64,000 nucleotides of DNA from Fistulifera solaris (taxonomy: Eukaryota; Bacillariophyta; Bacillariophyceae; Naviculales; Stauroneidaceae). Shown here piece by piece: positions 4,254-61,853 of the stretch. The stretch lies in the NCBI GenBank assembly GCA_030295235.1, contig AP026134.1, forward strand, positions 558,001-622,000, read 5' to 3'. The position numbers and the translations under genes are program-made. Within the stretch, counting starts at the first letter, position 1, and every line of letters starts with the position of its first letter. Under the pieces are notes generated by a model. The model was not told where the DNA came from, did not search any database, and was given only the letters and a program-made list of their open reading frames with translations.

Positions 4254-6083
4254 ATGATTTTTGGATTCTCACGCCATGTAGCGAGTTGGAGCCAGACGCT
4301 GACCAAGTCGAGCTTCACGCAATCCATGAGACTTTCGTTCGTTCAGCGGCGGACGTTGGCTTCGTACCGTAAAAGTCAAATATTTATGATGCCCGAGGGT
4401 CCAGAGGTCCGAACTCTTGTGGATCAGTTGCAAGGAGGTGTGGGGAAACGACTTGTTAACATACAGGTGCTGTCCGGTCGATATCGTCAAAATGGCCCGC
4501 CCGATGGGTTTGTGGAGTTTGCGTCTACTATTACGCGATACGTTCCGGGTGACGACGAAGTGGACAACGTGGATATCATTCAAGAATGGAACTGCAAAGG
4601 GAAGTTCATCTATATCGTGTTGGATGATGGAAAACAAGAGCATCAGGATCCAAATTTTCAAAGGACAATTTTTGTTACTTTGGGAATGACGGGAAAGTTT
4701 GTAGCAGAAAAAGTGCACCGACAGGATAGTAGATTCGCTCGATGGTCCATGGAGCTTCTTGATGTGAATACGATGAAAACTATTAAGATATTTTACCATG
4801 ATCAAAGAAACTTTGGTACACTGAAGTTTTGTTTGAAGCGTGCCGATCTGCAGGAGAAACTAGATTCGCTGGGACCCGACATTCTGGATAACTATATCAC
4901 TGACCAAATGTTTCTGGATATTGTGGCTGCGCAAAAGCAAGATCTTAACATTTGCAAGTTTCTTATGAACCAAACAAAGATTTCTGGTGTTGGAAACTAT
5001 ATCCTTGCTGAAGCGCTGTACCGAGCACGGATCGATCCTTTCGCGTCATTGCACGAAATCAACGAAAGCCAGCTAAAGAGTCTTTTCCGTGAAATTCGCA
5101 CCACGGCACTACAGTCGTATCAGGCAAACGGCTTGACCAGGCAAAATGGTGGGCAATACAATAACATGGACGGCGAAGCGGGCCGATTCAGCTTTGAACT
5201 ACAATGCTATGGCAAGGAAACATGTGCGAAAGGGAAGCCAGTACTCAGAGAAACCAATGGACCTCATGATCGAACTATCTGGTACACGGAAGATCAATTG
5301 TTTATGCCTCGAGATTTGAGAATGACAGAATCCGCTCAATCTTTCCAGCGGGATGATTCTTCATCCGAACAAATGGAAGAGACTGACTCGGTTGGTCTCT
5401 CCGATGGGCTGACTGAGCCCAGTTGGCGAAATGTCCTTGCGGAAACATTTGAAACCGAGTCGTTTAGGGCTTTGGAAGCATTTTTAGAAGACGAAAGGCG
5501 ACAGGGCGCTACTGTCTATCCGCCACCGCAAGACATTTTTTCAGCTCTGAACAGTTGCCCGTTTGATCAAGTCAAGGTGGTCATCGTGGGGCAGGATCCG
5601 TACCATGGTCCCGGGCAGGGAAACGGCATGGCGTTTTCGGTTCGATCCGGAATACAACCTCCTCCGTCTTTGCAAAACATATTTCGCGAGGCTATGTCAG
5701 ACGTCGGCATTGCACAGCCTCTTCATGGCAACCTGCAATGCTGGGCAAGGCAAGGTATTTTACTTTTGAATTCGGTTCTAACGGTACGTCAAGGCGAGGC
5801 AAATAGCCATGCTAATAAAGGCTGGGAAGAGTTTACCGATTTAATCATCCGACGACTCAATGATGACCGCGAGAATCTCGTCTTTCTTCTTTGGGGGCGT
5901 CCTGCTGCGACGAAAGCGAAATGCGTCGACGAAGGGCGCCATCATGTCATAAGAACCAGCCACCCTAGTCCTCTGGGTGCTACTAAAACCACTTCGCCGT
6001 TTTTATCGTCGAAGTGTTTCAGCAGATGCAACGAGTATCTGACTTCTGTCGGAAACGCTCCTATCGACTGGAGTGTTGTGTAA
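4254..6083 (+). CDS. Bifunctional DNA glycosylase: Nei/Fpg domain fused to family-1 uracil-DNA glycosylase
   Basis: One continuous 609-residue frame holds two base-excision-repair enzymes. Counting from the internal Met at 4389, the Nei/Fpg part starts MPEGPEVRT (catalytic Pro2 and Glu3). It has the hairpin lysine in GKF (about residue 72), an H2TH segment (ISGVGNYILAEALYRARIDP, near 200) and a zinc-less finger-like end (CYGKETC...DRTIWY) with the conserved Arg. A roughly 60-residue acidic linker leads to a complete UNG domain with GQDPYHG, LLLNSVLTV and HPSPLGA (usually HPSPLSA). The fusion would remove oxidised bases and uracil with one polypeptide. The upstream in-frame Met (4254) adds a Ser/Arg-rich, organelle-type leader, but Nei chemistry needs Pro at the N-terminus, so either 4389 is a start or the leader is cleaved exactly before Pro. 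Confidence 0.93.
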   Translation: MIFGFSRHVASWSQTLTKSSFTQSMRLSFVQRRTLASYRKSQIFMMPEGPEVRTLVDQLQGGVGKRLVNIQVLSGRYRQNGPPDGFVEFASTITRYVPGDDEVDNVDIIQEWNCKGKFIYIVLDDGKQEHQDPNFQRTIFVTLGMTGKFVAEKVHRQDSRFARWSMELLDVNTMKTIKIFYHDQRNFGTLKFCLKRADLQEKLDSLGPDILDNYITDQMFLDIVAAQKQDLNICKFLMNQTKISGVGNYILAEALYRARIDPFASLHEINESQLKSLFREIRTTALQSYQANGLTRQNGGQYNNMDGEAGRFSFELQCYGKETCAKGKPVLRETNGPHDRTIWYTEDQLFMPRDLRMTESAQSFQRDDSSSEQMEETDSVGLSDGLTEPSWRNVLAETFETESFRALEAFLEDERRQGATVYPPPQDIFSALNSCPFDQVKVVIVGQDPYHGPGQGNGMAFSVRSGIQPPPSLQNIFREAMSDVGIAQPLHGNLQCWARQGILLLNSVLTVRQGEANSHANKGWEEFTDLIIRRLNDDRENLVFLLWGRPAATKAKCVDEGRHHVIRTSHPSPLGATKTTSPFLSSKCFSRCNEYLTSVGNAPIDWSVV

Positions 6084-6678: not shown

Positions 6679-8406
6679 ATGAATCATTTGATCTGCTCCC
6701 TGCTTGCTTTTAGCTCGCTCCCTCATGGGCTATTTGGCTTTAACGTGAATACCCCTTCGATAAGAACGCCGTCGTCTCTTGAGTCGTCTGTTTCGGTTTC
6801 TTCAAATCAAGCAAAGGCCCAGCCAAACGAGGCGATGCCTTGGCCACTCAACGTTGAAAAATACGGCGAGTTCGATCAACACAATGATTGGGGTTTCGTG
6901 TATTCGTCTGTACCTCCGGAAGCTTCTTCGTCGTATGAAATTGACGATATTGAAGGTCAGATTCCAGCAGACTTGTCTGGAGCATACTACAAGGCAGGGC
7001 CTGGAAATTTCGAGCGAGAAGGACGCAGATACGCGCACGTTCTCGATGGCGACGGCTTTGTAGCGGCTTTTCACTTTGGAAATGGAAAGGCTAGATACAC
7101 TGGTCGCTTTGTGGAGACAGAGTATTTTGTCCGTGAGTCACTGGAAGACAAAATCAAGTATCGTAATGTATTTGGAACTCAACGCTCTGGAAGCATACTC
7201 AAGAATGCATTCGACTTGGTTCTAAAGAATGTCGCAAACACGAATGTGGTGAAATGGGGTGGAAGATTATTCGCGTTATGGGAAGCAGGTCGTCCCTATG
7301 AGCTAGACCCTGATACTCTGGAAACATTGAAGCAAGCAGATGATGGGCCCTATGAGGGACTTGGAACTGATGCTAGGATCAGAGGTATCACAGTTGATCA
7401 TGGCGGTCAAATTGATAAGCTGATGGGAGTAGGACGCGCATTTACAGCACATCCCCATATCCTCGATGATGACACGATGGTCGCATTCAAAGCAGCCACC
7501 AGCGTGACAGACAAGAAATCCTGCTTGGAGTTCTTGGAGTACAATAATAAGTGGGAGGTGAAAAAGGCAGTCGAATACTCGTTTGATGTTGGACCACCAC
7601 CACATGATTTCAGCATTTCAGAAAACTATTACTGCTTCTTCGAAAACCCTTTTGGTGCCATGGACAACGTCCCGTACTTGTTCGGCGTCAAAGCCCCAAC
7701 TCAAATAATGCAGCTTCTGCTCCGTCGGCCAGCTATTTTACACTTGGTACCGCGCCATTCATTTGCAAAAGCCATGACGGTGGAAGTCGCGCCCTACTTT
7801 AATATTCACAATGTTCCGGAAGCAATTGAAAGAAACGGGAAGCTTTACTTGTACTCTAATGGATGGGATTTGAATGATCGACGATTCTTCCCAGATTCAA
7901 AGGATTCTGTTCCTTTCCTCGGCTCGTGGGGTGGTCTCTACCCAGATTTCATAAATGGCGTCGTTCCTCCGAGTTTCCTTTATGAAACAGTGGTGGATTT
8001 GCAGTCCAAGACGACGGTTCGTCATAAAGAAGTTGCACCGGGAGTAGTCATGGAGTTCCCTGTTTCGGATCCAAACAACGCTGAAATTGTGTATTGTACA
8101 GTTGCCGCCACAGATTACACCTCTTTGCCTGGAACCGGATTATGTAAAATGAACGTAAAGACGTCGGAAGTGGAGTGCTGGTGGGCCGAAAACAAAATCT
8201 TCACACATGAGATCACTCCAGTATCAAAGCTGAATGGCGAGGCGGGTTCCTGGCTCCTTACCCTTTTCTACGATTCTGGTAAAAAACGAGCATCTTTAGC
8301 CATTTTTGACAGCGAGAAATTCCAGGAAGGTCCAGTCTGCCGAATGCATTTAAAGCATCATTTGAGTTATGGCCTTCACGGTTCCTTCTCGTCGTGCTTG
8401 AACTAA
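6679..8406 (+). CDS. Carotenoid cleavage dioxygenase (RPE65/CCD family), plastid-type leader
   Basis: 575 residues from the ATG at 6679; upstream in-frame codons are non-ATG. The four iron-binding histidines of the family are visible in TAHPHI (about residue 256), PPPHDF (308), FNIHNVP (375) and GLHGSF near the C-terminus, with family blocks such as YYKAGPGNFE and HVLDGDGFV. The enzyme oxidatively cleaves a carotenoid or apocarotenoid double bond; the precise substrate cannot be read from sequence. The N-terminus (MNHLICSLLAFSSLPHGLFGFNV) is a signal peptide with G-F at the predicted cleavage point, as expected for import into a complex plastid. Single exon, no frame defects. Confidence 0.92.
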   Translation: MNHLICSLLAFSSLPHGLFGFNVNTPSIRTPSSLESSVSVSSNQAKAQPNEAMPWPLNVEKYGEFDQHNDWGFVYSSVPPEASSSYEIDDIEGQIPADLSGAYYKAGPGNFEREGRRYAHVLDGDGFVAAFHFGNGKARYTGRFVETEYFVRESLEDKIKYRNVFGTQRSGSILKNAFDLVLKNVANTNVVKWGGRLFALWEAGRPYELDPDTLETLKQADDGPYEGLGTDARIRGITVDHGGQIDKLMGVGRAFTAHPHILDDDTMVAFKAATSVTDKKSCLEFLEYNNKWEVKKAVEYSFDVGPPPHDFSISENYYCFFENPFGAMDNVPYLFGVKAPTQIMQLLLRRPAILHLVPRHSFAKAMTVEVAPYFNIHNVPEAIERNGKLYLYSNGWDLNDRRFFPDSKDSVPFLGSWGGLYPDFINGVVPPSFLYETVVDLQSKTTVRHKEVAPGVVMEFPVSDPNNAEIVYCTVAATDYTSLPGTGLCKMNVKTSEVECWWAENKIFTHEITPVSKLNGEAGSWLLTLFYDSGKKRASLAIFDSEKFQEGPVCRMHLKHHLSYGLHGSFSSCLN

Positions 8407-18491: not shown

Positions 18492-19247
18492 CTATAGAAT
18501 AATGCACCCGCAATTGTTTGGCTCGACAGCCTCTTCACTCACGGCCGGTCGATCGAATGAAGGTGCCGATTTAATAGTAGGTTTGGAAGCTGACACGGCC
18601 TTTGTGGGAGACGACGGAACCGGTGTGGCTGCTGGGGTAACAACAGGCGCAGAGTCTTCCGCTTTTACTTCTAATTCTTTCGCGGCAACTGGAGCGTCAG
18701 CTTCTACTGTAAGAGCGACAGCAGCAGGTTTGGTCTCTGGTACCTCAACGGGCTCTGGTTCGGGCTCGTTTTTAACAACTGGCTCTGGTTCAGGCTCGGG
18801 TTCAGGCACAACGGGCTCTGGTTCAGGTTCCGGCAAAGCAGCGGGCTCTGGTTCGGGTTCCGGAACAGCAGGAGGCTCTGGCTCCGGTTCTGAAACAGCA
18901 ACGGGTTCTGGCTCCGGCTCCGAGATAGCGACAGGTTCAGGTGCGGGCACGGACTCGGGTACGGCAACGGTTTCTGGTTCGGCCACAACCGCACGCTCCG
19001 TCAGCACGGGCTCTTCTATCGAAACTTCGGCCGCCACCTTGCTATTCAATACTTCCGTATTGACTTCCTCATCTTGGGAAGGAATCTCTGGCGTTGTTTC
19101 GACAACGTCAGACGGTATATCTTCCAGAGTGTCGACCGACTTGATCTCGGTCAAAGTAGGGCCACTCTCGACCGATTGCGCATCGTTCCCCGGCTTCTTG
19201 GCGCCCTTACCTTTGCCTCCTTTTCCTTTCTTGTTCTTCTTGCCCAT
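18492..19247 (-). CDS. PEPEP-repeat protein with C-terminal CAAX prenylation box
   Basis: 251 residues. The N-terminus is a Lys/Gly-rich basic patch ([18 protein letters not shown]). The centre, about residues 95-170, is a low-complexity array of [10 protein letters not shown]-type units, giving an acidic Pro/Glu rod. The last residues are NNCGCIIL, a CAAX box (C-I-I-L) whose final Leu favours geranylgeranylation, with a second Cys two positions upstream that could be acylated. A lipid-anchored, extended membrane tether is inferred; the basic start could also bind acidic lipids. I know no specific family. The opposite strand carries a Gly/Ser-repeat frame that is only a shadow of the repeat. 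Confidence 0.8.
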
Positions 19248-31151: not shown

Positions 31152-34034
31152 ATGTCAGCTTTCCGGGGACGAGGCGCAGTACCGCCGAAGAATTACGTTC
31201 CTGGACTGGGTCGCGGTGCCGCTGGCTTTACGACGCGCAGTGATGTGGGCCCAGTCGTCCCCGAAGACGCCGTCACCGGAAGTGGTAGTCGAGCGGCGGA
31301 AGCGCGGAAGCAATTACAATTTGGAGCCCCGCCCGCCAATTATGTAGCGGGGGCGGGGAGAGGGGCCGGGACTCTAAATGCTCAGGGAGACGAAGGACCC
31401 GTCGGAGCTTACGATAGCTTTTCCGGATATTCGGCGGCACCCCAAAAAGGTCAATACGATGATGACGATGACGAAGCTGATAAAATATGGGCAACTATTG
31501 ATGAGCGAATGAATCGAAAACGAAAGAAAAAAGGCGACAATACACAAGATGATGCTGATGACGACGCTGGTGGACGAAAACGAGTCAGAGCAAGGATCGG
31601 CGCGCAATTTCACGAACTCAAGGAGAAATTAGCCGAAGTCACAGAAGATCAATGGGCTAGTATTCCGGATGTTGGGGATCATAGTTTGAAGTATAAGCAG
31701 CAGAGGCGACAGCAAGATACGTTCACGCCTTTATCAGATTCACTCATCGAGCAGAGGAATAAGTCGCAACTGGACGCGTCGGCAGGCAATGCTGCTCTTG
31801 CGGGTACTACGATAGCAGATGACGGATCTGGGTTCAAATCAGTCGTAGCTGATATGTCTGGCCTCAGTGCTGCTCGTGGTACGGTTCTTGGTATAAGTCT
31901 GGATCGAATGTCGGGTTCAGTTGCCGGCAATCAGACATCAATCGATCCAAAAGGTTATCTGACGAGCCTTTCTGGTATTCAGTCAGTGTCAAATGCTGAG
32001 GTGGCGGATATCAATAAAGCCCGCTTACTTCTTAAGTCCGTTCGCGACACGAATCCAAAACACGGTCCAGGGTGGATTGCGGCTGCTCGAGTGGAAGAGG
32101 CGGCTGGAAAGTTACTGCAGGCGCGAAAAATCATCCAGGAGGCTTGTGAGATCTGTGCCGACAACGAGGATGTGTGGTTGGAAGCAGCAAGGTTGCACCC
32201 TCATGATGTTGCAAAAAGTATCTTAGCTACAGCCGTTCGCCGTGTCCCAAAATCTGTGAAAATCTTTCTCAAGGCAGCAGATCTTGAACATGTCGAAGCG
32301 AACAAGAAAGCAGTGTTGCGAAAAGGTTTGGAAGCTAATCCCTCGTCGATTACGCTATGGAAAGCAGCTATTGCTTTAGAAAATGCTGAGGATGCACGAC
32401 TTCTGCTACAAGTTGCAGTAGAAAAGGTTCCTCATTCGGTAGAAATGTGGCTGGCTCTAGCACGTTTGGAGTCTTACAAAAATGCTCAGAGAGTTCTCAA
32501 TAGTGCAAGAAAAGCTTTACCGAATGATCGGTCGATATGGATTGCAGCTGCGAGACTGGAAGAATCACAAAATCACGATGAAGTCATTGACAAGATTATT
32601 CAGAGAGCTGTCAAGTCTCTTGAAAAGAATGAAGCTGTCGTAACTCGCGCGCAGTGGCTTCAAGAAGCTGAAGCGGCAGAAAGTTCCGGTGCACCATTGA
32701 CGAGTGCTGCTATAATAAAGTATACAATTGGTAAAGATGTTGATGACGAAGATCGACAACGGACGTGGACGGAAGATGCAAAAGGAGCTGCCGCCCGTGG
32801 TTCCATAGCAACTGCCAGAGCTATCCTGTCACACGCGCTGTCTGCGTTTCCAACGAAAAGGACCCTTTGGACACAGGCGATTGATCTTGAACGCAACCAT
32901 GGAACGGCGAAAACGTTGGATGAAGTGCTTGAAGCTGCTAGTGAGCGGCTTCCTCAAGTTGAGATTTTCTGGTTGCTACGGGCAAAAGAGCAGTGGGTCA
33001 ATGGGGATGTGAATAAAGCTCGCGATATTCTTGCAAAGGCTTTTGCTGTGAACCCTGAATCTGAAGCCGTTTGGTTGGCGGCATCCAAGCTCGAGCATGA
33101 GAACGGCGAAGTCGAACGCGCTCGTTTCTTCCTTGAAAGAGCCAGACAAAGAGCACCAACGGCTCGAGTTTATATGAAAGCTGCTCTTCTAGAGAGAGAA
33201 CAAACGAATTTCGATGACGCACTCCAACTAATTGAAGAAGGCTTATCAAAGTTTGTTAAATTTAGCAAACTATACATGATGGGTGGTCAAATATGCTCAG
33301 AAAATTTACCACGCAATAAGACCAGTTTATCACGTGCAAGAAAGTTTTATGAAAGAGGGTTGAAGGAATGCCCTGAAAGCCACATCTTGTGGATTCTAGC
33401 GAGTCGCTTGGAGGAAGAGGCTGTGCACTTTGAGGACGTAGCGACGAACAGTCAAGGGTCTGGTGCAACGAAGGCTAGAAGTATCCTTGAGTTGGCGCGG
33501 TTGAAGAATCCAAAGAACCCAGATCTTTGGCTGGAATCCATAAGACTTGAACGCCGGGTGGGGACAACGAAACTCGCTGAGACGCAGATGGCAAAAGCCT
33601 TACAGGAGTGTCCAAAGTCTGGAATTCTCCTAGCCGAGTCAATATTGAGCAGTCCGCGTGTCGAGCAGAAGTCAAAGGCAGCAGAAGCGATTAAGCGTTG
33701 TCCAGATGATCCTTTGGTTATCGCGGCAGTTGCTTCTCTGTTTGCGTCAGAAAACAAAAATGACAAGGCGCGTAAGTGGTTTGATAGAGCCACGGTTTTG
33801 AATCCAGATATTGGTGACATCTGGGCTCGATTCTATTTATTCGAATTGAAATCCGGTACGCAAGATCAACAGGAAAAGGTCAAAGCGGCTTGCATTGCAG
33901 CAGAACCAAAACATGGAGATATTTGGGCGTCGATTATGAAAGATATGAAAAATAGGGGTAAATCTGTTGCCGAAGGGTTGGAGCTGGTTGCTGAACACAT
34001 TCTACTGGAACAGAAGAAAGCGCTTGTGTCATGA
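31152..34034 (+). CDS. PRPF6: U5 snRNP / tri-snRNP protein PRP6 (PRPF6)
   Basis: 960 residues from the ATG at 31152 (in-frame upstream codons are non-ATG). The PRP1 N-terminal domain is clear (NYVPGLGRGAAGFTTRSDVGP, a second imperfect copy NYVAGAGRGAGT, then ADKIWATIDERMNRKRKKK and a FHELKEKLAEVTEDQWASIPDVGD block). It is followed by a long array of HAT/TPR-like helix pairs from about residue 290 to the end (GWIAAARVEEAAGKLLQARKI, VWLEAARLH, IWIAAARLEE, VWLAASKLEHENGE). Prp6 bridges U5 with U4/U6 in the tri-snRNP. Single exon; no frame defects over 2.9 kb, which contrasts with the broken gene next door. Confidence 0.96.
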   Translation: MSAFRGRGAVPPKNYVPGLGRGAAGFTTRSDVGPVVPEDAVTGSGSRAAEARKQLQFGAPPANYVAGAGRGAGTLNAQGDEGPVGAYDSFSGYSAAPQKGQYDDDDDEADKIWATIDERMNRKRKKKGDNTQDDADDDAGGRKRVRARIGAQFHELKEKLAEVTEDQWASIPDVGDHSLKYKQQRRQQDTFTPLSDSLIEQRNKSQLDASAGNAALAGTTIADDGSGFKSVVADMSGLSAARGTVLGISLDRMSGSVAGNQTSIDPKGYLTSLSGIQSVSNAEVADINKARLLLKSVRDTNPKHGPGWIAAARVEEAAGKLLQARKIIQEACEICADNEDVWLEAARLHPHDVAKSILATAVRRVPKSVKIFLKAADLEHVEANKKAVLRKGLEANPSSITLWKAAIALENAEDARLLLQVAVEKVPHSVEMWLALARLESYKNAQRVLNSARKALPNDRSIWIAAARLEESQNHDEVIDKIIQRAVKSLEKNEAVVTRAQWLQEAEAAESSGAPLTSAAIIKYTIGKDVDDEDRQRTWTEDAKGAAARGSIATARAILSHALSAFPTKRTLWTQAIDLERNHGTAKTLDEVLEAASERLPQVEIFWLLRAKEQWVNGDVNKARDILAKAFAVNPESEAVWLAASKLEHENGEVERARFFLERARQRAPTARVYMKAALLEREQTNFDDALQLIEEGLSKFVKFSKLYMMGGQICSENLPRNKTSLSRARKFYERGLKECPESHILWILASRLEEEAVHFEDVATNSQGSGATKARSILELARLKNPKNPDLWLESIRLERRVGTTKLAETQMAKALQECPKSGILLAESILSSPRVEQKSKAAEAIKRCPDDPLVIAAVASLFASENKNDKARKWFDRATVLNPDIGDIWARFYLFELKSGTQDQQEKVKAACIAAEPKHGDIWASIMKDMKNRGKSVAEGLELVAEHILLEQKKALVS

Positions 34035-60337: not shown

Positions 60338-60736
60338 AAAAGAATTTGACGGCAAAGTTTTAACGGGGAAGAAAAAGAAGAATAAACATGGGTTACAAAG
60401 CATTATATGTTGTTTTACGTGCACGGTGCGCAATTTAAACTCTAAACTATCAACAAGGGAAACAGTTCAAGGAATTATCTGCTCTAGTATTCCACAACAA
60501 CTAGTTTCGTCACTTCTCGGATACATCCTATACTTGTTACTCCGAAAACGTTCAAGAAATACAACAAAAATTAACTTTTGGTCTCTACTACGCATTCTAC
60601 TTCTTACAACCCACGCAAAACTTCTGCGTCGCTCTTGTAGGACCACGGGTTGATCAGTCCTTCAAAAGTTCATTCCGAAGTTACACTTGTGGGTTATACG
60701 ATGCATCATGACGACGAATTATTGAATTCGCTTACT
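60338..60736. other. Convergent 3' region shared by the zinc protein and selenoprotein H
   Basis: 399 bp of 3' flank for both genes. On the minus strand it is the 3' UTR of the selenoprotein gene and holds the SECIS element listed separately. Confidence 0.7.
60608..60695 (-). promoter_or_regulatory. SECIS element in the 3' UTR of selenoprotein H
   Basis: Read on the minus strand: a lower stem AACCCAC/GTGGGTT (60689-60695 with 60608-60614), a second stem AACTTC/GAAGTT (60677-60682 with 60619-60624), then the non-Watson-Crick core ATGA (60670-60673) opposite CGA (60629-60631). Above it a 12-bp stem with one A-A mismatch (60657-60668 with 60632-60643) closes a 13-nt apical loop containing the expected AA. 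All SECIS parts are present, in order and with normal spacing, 42 nt after the stop codon of the selenoprotein gene. Confidence 0.88.
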
Positions 60737-61227
60737 TTAAAAATTGCAAGCTTTCGAGATATCTTGACAGACTTGATCCATGTCGAGTGCCTTGAGGGCC
60801 GGAAAGGGGCGTTTCAATGCCAACAACTCTACTACGGGATCGTCTTTACCACTTACTCGAACAACGAAATTGCCTTTACCAGGCTTCTCTTCGTTGATCT
60901 TGACGGATGCCTTTCCTTTGACTGCAAAAAAATACATGATGAGATCAACAACAACGTGAATGAAAAGAATATATAATCTACTTACAATACGCTTCAATTT
61001 TCAACGCCCTTGTTTTGAATGCATTTCATTGCTTGCAAGCTTCGATGGATATAATGACTTCTTTGCCTGCTGCAGTGAGTTTATCCTCCTTTTGCTTTCC
61101 GTCTTCTTGGGAGGCTGGACCGTAGTCTTGACTGGCTTGGCCTTGGTCTTCCCGGCCGAGATCGGTTCTTCTTTCTTTTCGATGCTTTCGCCTCAGCAGC
61201 TGGTGCGGCACTTCTCAATGTACGCAT
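60737..61227 (-). CDS. SELENOH: Selenoprotein H, Rdx family, with in-frame TGA for selenocysteine
   Basis: Exon 1 is 61227-60986, exon 2 60921-60737; the 64-bp intron is GT-AG with a long T-tract. The product is about 142 residues: a Lys-rich, nuclear-type N-terminus, then KEVIISIEACKQ-U-NAFKTRALKIEAY, where U is the TGA at 61026-61028 within a CxxU redox motif. Exon 2 continues with KGKASVKINEEKPGKGNFVVRV, LKRPFPALKALDM, the SelH/Rdx pattern. Two A3 runs on the minus strand (plus-strand 61186-61188 and 61097-61099) each appear to lack one base, which otherwise splits the Lys-rich part. The downstream SECIS supports Sec insertion. SelH is a thioredoxin-fold, nucleolar oxidoreductase in animals. 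Without the Sec reading this gene is invisible or truncated. Confidence 0.88.
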
Positions 61228-61853
61228 CTTTGTCGAATAAGAATACAACTAACAGAAAGAACAAGTTTAACGATAGAGAATGTGCTAAAAGAAAAGATGC
61301 GGAGCAATAAGATGCAGCGATGCAGCAAAGAAAAGTTGTAGTCAGCACAAAAAGTAACTACTTGTATAGTTGCGAAAGTAGTCTTAACGTTTCACCACGA
61401 CTGCATTTCAGTCATGAACAATGAATATCGGATTTACTTTCCGTTCGTTCTGCTACTGTTTCAATTCAACATTGCTTTACTTTATTTACTATGATATTTC
61501 TTTGACAGCATTTGTATTGCACTCATCGAAGATTTATAGCGAAATAGGCTTGCAAATCAACCGGTTGCATATTTACTATGGGTCAGTATACTTTGTAAAC
61601 GACTTTTCACCAAGACTGCCTTTCAGTCATGAAACCAGGAAGGCTATTACGCTTACGCCGCAGCCGCAGGCGAAAAATGACGCCCGGCCCAACATTCCAT
61701 CTCCGCCGCATAGTGAATAGTGAATAGTGAAGTGGATTTTTTCGACGATCATGCTTTTCACACACAACGCCAGCAACCTAACACGTTATCATTATTTCAT
61801 TTATCACTTTCATCATTGATCTTCCACTTTATATACCTCTACTCTAGTGGCCG
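61228..61853. other. Divergent intergenic region with two hairpin repeats
   Basis: 626 bp between selenoprotein H and the DNAJC9-like gene. Hairpin-repeat copies (reverse orientation) at about 61391-61416 and 61607-61636. A 99-codon frame (61421-61720) crosses one copy and is probably chance. Confidence 0.6.
61391..61416 (-). repeat. Dispersed hairpin repeat, reverse copy
   Basis: accacgactgcatttcagtc-atgaa is the exact reverse complement of the core of copies 2 and 3. A more diverged sister lies at 61607-61636 (aagactgcctttcagtcatg). Confidence 0.8.

Follow-up and report, generated by a model that had tools for sequence, protein, structure and literature searches.

The locus raises the question of whether a TGA codon on the minus strand of the window (the whole stretch of DNA analysed, 64000 nt, C14:558001–622000) is a stop or a selenocysteine codon within a protein-coding gene. 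The TGA is the last codon of TGC-AAG-CAA-TGA, which is found at 61037–61026. The gene features, all on the minus strand, are as follows.

61227–60986, minus strand: exon 1 as proposed by the sequence-only reading, starting from the ATG at 61227; three-frame translation places it in three different frames
61037–61035, minus strand: Cys codon of C-K-Q-U, from the sequence
61028–61026, minus strand: TGA, predicted selenocysteine codon of the motif C-K-Q-U, from the sequence; the same TGA and motif occur in a second copy of the gene on contig C13
60985–60922, minus strand: intron of 64 nt, GTAAGT...TTTTGCAG, predicted from the sequence; splits a codon after the first base
60921–60737, minus strand: exon 2, up to the stop codon TAA at 60739–60737, from the sequence

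In the reading frame of the TGA there are 62 open codons upstream of it, and the frame continues through the TGA to the splice donor at 60985. The intron of the window copy has the termini GTAAGT...GCAG. After the TGA there are 74 sense codons followed by the TAA at 60739–60737, and the product after the putative selenocysteine is NAFKTRALKIEAYFKGKASVKINEEKPGKGNFVVRVSGKDDPVVELLALKRPFPALKALDMDQVCQDISKACNF (74 residues). The sequence-only reading had placed a minus strand TGA at 61026–61028 in C-K-Q-U and a second exon beyond an intron at 60922–60985; both are borne out, the latter by a GT...AG intron and the 74 codons leading to the TAA.

A second copy of the gene and the protein past the TGA

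The genome searched consists of 51715745 bases in 61 contigs; its make-up, SepSecS and the intron of this gene mark it as that of a eukaryote, probably a single-celled alga and perhaps a diatom with a doubled, diverged genome such as Fistulifera. A DNA search with the SelH gene yielded the gene itself and C13:642338–643015, which is 81% identical. The protein search listed four matches, i.e. two exons at each of two places (window and C13), and each first-exon match contains one TGA. The genome has two diverged copies of the SelH gene. The C13 copy retains the TGA, the CKQU motif, the place of the intron, the 74-codon continuation and the stop codon; its intron is 67 nt long, has GT...AG ends and is at a position identical to that in the window. 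When the window is compared with the 70 kb region C13:586001–656000, the sequence from position 7552 on forms 17 collinear blocks with 79.6–92.6% identity, and there is one further 68-base match that is out of order. For the initial 7.5 kb, the counterpart is outside of the C13 region compared.

TGA is a standard stop codon, and it could be a true stop here with the downstream stretch representing a separate or alternative coding exon. The two copies can be compared past this codon. Over the 74 codons following the TGA, window and C13 display 2, 1, and 19 differences at first, second, and third codon positions, respectively (dN = 0.023, dS = 0.52). These values are strong evidence that the part past the TGA is translated, and such a dN/dS would not be expected from DNA lying behind a true stop codon. 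In the 14 codons before the TGA the differences by codon position are 2, 1, and 4 (dN = 0.13, dS = 0.46).

Relationship to selenoprotein H

Selenoprotein H is a small thioredoxin-like redox protein with a Cys-x-x-Sec active site. The SELENOH family is characterized by a CxxU motif at the start of the domain, a VKxNxxKPxxGxF stretch, a SECIS in the 3′ flank, and a Lys-rich stretch that precedes the domain. The gene described here is similar in each of these features, with CxxU starting the domain, VKxNxxKPxxGxF, a Lys-rich stretch ahead of the domain, and a SECIS-like hairpin in the 3′ flank. The family yardstick is one sequence, human SELENOH. The window peptide aligns with it with a score of 80 (shuffled sequences: mean 27.0, sd 4.8) and the C13 peptide with a score of 69 (mean 27.5, sd 4.9); in the case of C13, 0 of 2000 shuffles score as high. 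The sequence-only reading had suggested an alignment of the product to SelH as a check, and with the one human sequence as reference, the window peptide gives a favorable outcome, also with 0 of 2000 shuffles as high.

The CxxU and VKxNxxKPxxGxF stretches align between the peptide and human SELENOH, and 22 of 85 residues are identical, the peptide used having a slightly wrong splice junction. The motif is CKQU in both copies, whereas that of human SELENOH is CTSU, and unlike SELENOH, the N-terminal frame is broken in the present assembly. Of importance to the reading of the TGA as a true stop, the domain runs on across this codon in the alignment and the TGA occupies the place of Sec in the motif, which argues against a stop.

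Proteins of the SelW/SelT/Rdx family (Pfam PF10262) are small thioredoxin-like proteins as well, with CxxU or CxxC. The gene shares the CxxU motif with them, and Rdx members exist elsewhere in the genome; however, unlike the SelW/SelT/Rdx genes of this genome, it shows no match to the Pfam Rdx model. A Pfam search with the peptide gave no Rdx match up to E = 10 and only HicB at E = 0.05–0.06, below the cut-off, and a PDB sequence search gave one match with E = 0.76, which offers no support; the query in both searches was a peptide whose splice junction was slightly off, with two additional residues and one altered residue. The Rdx model PF10262 run over the genome listed six other places, with the SelH gene not among them. 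The gene is accordingly not placed under this Pfam profile. The assignment to SelH is based on the one SELENOH sequence together with the motif layout, and the gene looks like a genuine SelH gene that adds an ordinary member to a family already known.

Pattern matches in prokaryote genomes numbered 63, and a single locus was taken from these, L035 (Chlorobi). By eye it shares only the short CKQCNAFKT and the open reading frame is otherwise unlike, and it was rejected. The viral contigs gave 7 pattern matches and 0 relatives.

The 3′ flank hairpin and selenocysteine decoding in the genome

Eukaryotic SECIS elements have an ATGA ... GA core, a stem of approximately 12 bp, and an apical loop with AA or CC. 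The 3′ flank of the window gene carries the following element.

60694–60609, minus strand: SECIS-like hairpin, from folding and a pattern scan; its counterpart is C13:642377–642472
60673–60670, minus strand: core ATGA, from the sequence
60656–60644, minus strand: apical loop of 13 nt, TGATCAACCCGTG, with AA at 60651–60650
60631–60629, minus strand: core CGA, from the sequence

The hairpin consists of a 12-column stem with one mismatch and two lower stems, and displays all of these eukaryotic SECIS features (core, stem, and AA loop). Every part that had been described from the sequence, i.e. ATGA/CGA, the 12-bp stem with one mismatch, the 13-nt loop with AA and the two lower stems, is found in the window. 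The predicted fold has a free energy of −33.4 kcal/mol (z = −4.13), and 0 of 200 shuffles are as low. A SECIS-like pattern, written after the element had been seen, matches at a single place over the two strands of the window taken together; it gives 10 matches in 10 Mb of simulated DNA, which corresponds to 0.128 expected per window (both strands) or 0.0006 per 600 nt. An Rfam search of the whole window gave no match at the gathering level, SECIS included, and up to E = 10 the region 60400–61400 showed an OppA thermometer (E = 2.9) as its single match and no SECIS family.

The counterpart of the hairpin is kept in place in the C13 copy but is weaker and less regular than that of the window (−27.9, z = −1.91, with 10 of 200 shuffles as low). 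The core is kept; one arm has a two-base gap, and the loop has CCACC, without AA, where the window has CAACC. Over the 70 kb of C13, a strict ungapped pattern produced one unrelated match and missed the SelH element, and a pattern allowing two mismatches produced three matches, none of which is the SelH element. Between the two hairpins, a lowest-stem pair is changed on both sides from A-U to G-C and one main-stem pair is changed on one side. With two sequences, covariation amounts to this 1 doubly changed pair and does not support the structure; 259 of 500 shuffles are as high, controls are not beaten, and the score is 0.130 in register vs. 0.174 when slid by +2 columns. Paired cells are 93% in register vs. 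43–56% on sliding, with the structure having been derived from one of the two sequences. The presence of a SECIS-like hairpin in the 3′ flank is a further point against a true stop at the TGA.

The genome has parts for selenocysteine decoding, such as tRNA-Sec and SepSecS, together with TGA-bearing selD and SelT-like genes. There are six places with tRNA-Sec over the Rfam cut-off. ARAGORN predicts tRNA-SeC with anticodon TCA at five of these (C4, C3, C29, and two on C27), the exception being C29:316549. SepSecS is present on C9 and C10. The selD gene, listed on one contig only (C16:721313–721888), has 128.3 bits compared to a cut-off of 125 and contains two TGA codons, one of which is within LKG*ACK, where SPS2 proteins usually have Sec. 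On both C13 and C14 a SelT-like gene shows CTS*G with TGA; we take these to be SelT and their TGA to be the known Sec site. A slightly wider SECIS pattern gave zero matches at the SelT-like and selD loci.

Several other properties of these loci can be mentioned. The second TGA of the SPS2-like selD gene on C16 resembles a frame break. The 3′ flanks of the SelT-like genes show a hairpin after ATGA, located identically in the two copies, with AAAAC in the upper part (among 9 fold sites listed), and this hairpin is possibly a SECIS. At C13:1141829–1142467 a single 306-aa frame contains two Rdx domains, both of which have CTGCRW. At C14:1079106–1079745 the two Rdx domains are in different frames, and the span is one base longer than that of C13.

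Other genes of the genome thus carry TGA at known Sec sites, and this also speaks against the selenoprotein H TGA being a true stop. With the alignment and the hairpin, that interpretation is very unlikely. The best explanation, with a probability of about 0.93, is a selenoprotein H gene of at least two exons that is present as two diverged copies, whose TGA at 61028–61026 would be read in frame as selenocysteine by tRNA-Sec(TCA) and whose hairpin in the 3′ UTR would direct the insertion. The intron at 60985–60922 would be spliced such that 60986 is joined to 60921, and the product would be a small thioredoxin-like redox protein with a Cys-x-x-Sec active site and an estimated mass of roughly 11–16 kDa (95–142 residues). 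Transcription, splicing, Sec insertion, and redox function of the gene are all predicted.

Frame breaks in the amino-terminal region

The 5′ part of the gene is the part of the sequence-only reading that does not hold. The ATG at 61227, from which the gene had been proposed to run in frame, is 199 nt upstream of the TGA (199 mod 3 = 1) and therefore out of frame with it in this assembly; its own frame closes at the TAA at 61083–61081. The 62 open codons before the window TGA contain no ATG. Exon 1 falls into three stretches, each in its own frame: that of the ATG, a middle one (KEEPISAGKTKAKPV...), and that of the Sec codon (EDKLTAAGKEVIISIEACKQU...), which ends at 60986. In the C13 copy, the middle and Sec stretches are in one frame and have their own ATG 26 codons ahead of the TGA. 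In C13, 184 nt separate the counterpart of the first ATG from the TGA, and it is out of frame by the same phase as in the window. As the assembly stands, the 5′ part of the gene first described fails; its interpretation as a selenoprotein gene is supported, with the TGA, intron, downstream frame, and hairpin counterpart all kept in C13.

The frame breaks in the SelH exon are situated in A-rich stretches. Frame differences between the copies are not confined to this gene. Open reading frames of at least 250 aa in the window (24, four of which have no aligned bases) show 31 frame-breaking indels relative to C13, 28 of them one-base, in 24313 aligned bases. The corresponding C13 set (21 open reading frames, four without aligned bases) shows 30 relative to the window, 29 of them one-base, in 21852 aligned bases. 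This is about one frame-breaking indel per 700–800 aligned bases of long open reading frames (window 7552–64000), where reading frames may overlap across strands and one indel can count twice (that at 19232 does), some are close opposite-sign pairs whose net effect leaves the frame intact and which may reflect aligner choices, and the counts include open reading frame ends that differ between the copies, an open reading frame not necessarily being a gene. Many of the C13 cases are outside of single-base runs. In the 961-codon open reading frame at 31152–34034, which is intact in the window and is the only one inspected in this way, there are five one-base differences in C13, of which four are in single-base runs and the fifth is next to one.

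Because one-base indels between the copies are frequent in long open reading frames, the N-terminal frame breaks are most likely assembly errors. The equal phase offset in both copies is what assembly error explains least well. The offset may instead be real and bridged by ribosomal frameshifting or by an unseen small intron; with frameshifting, two recoding events (frameshift and Sec insertion) would occur in one gene, and this possibility is highly improbable. If the indels in the long open reading frames are also assembly errors, automatic gene models would be spoiled by them.

The breaks could also be real mutations in a decaying SelH pseudogene, in which case the window copy would no longer make protein. 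The lack of an in-frame ATG over the 62 open codons of the window is consistent with decay, as are the two frame changes needed to read the ATG, middle, and Sec stretches, and, for the window copy specifically, the in-frame ATG that C13 does have 26 codons before its TGA. However, 19 of the 22 differences past the TGA are at third codon positions, there is no frame change over those 74 codons in either copy, and the long open reading frames of neighbouring genes show one-base indels between the copies as well. Taken with these points a pseudogene is very unlikely, and a genuine selenoprotein H gene with probable assembly errors in its 5′ part is preferred.

The gene appears to be one more selenoprotein gene that standard gene finders would probably truncate at its TGA. 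The two diverged copies retain the TGA, the intron, and the protein sequence past the TGA while the SECIS loop starts to differ, and they provide a natural comparison, of modest reach, between SECIS variants in the same cell.

Elsewhere in the window, on the plus strand, positions 4254–6083 carry a 609-aa open reading frame that, by eye from the translation, seemingly combines two parts, one resembling formamidopyrimidine-DNA glycosylase (MPEGPEVRTLV...) and the other uracil-DNA glycosylase (VGQDPYHGPGQ...).
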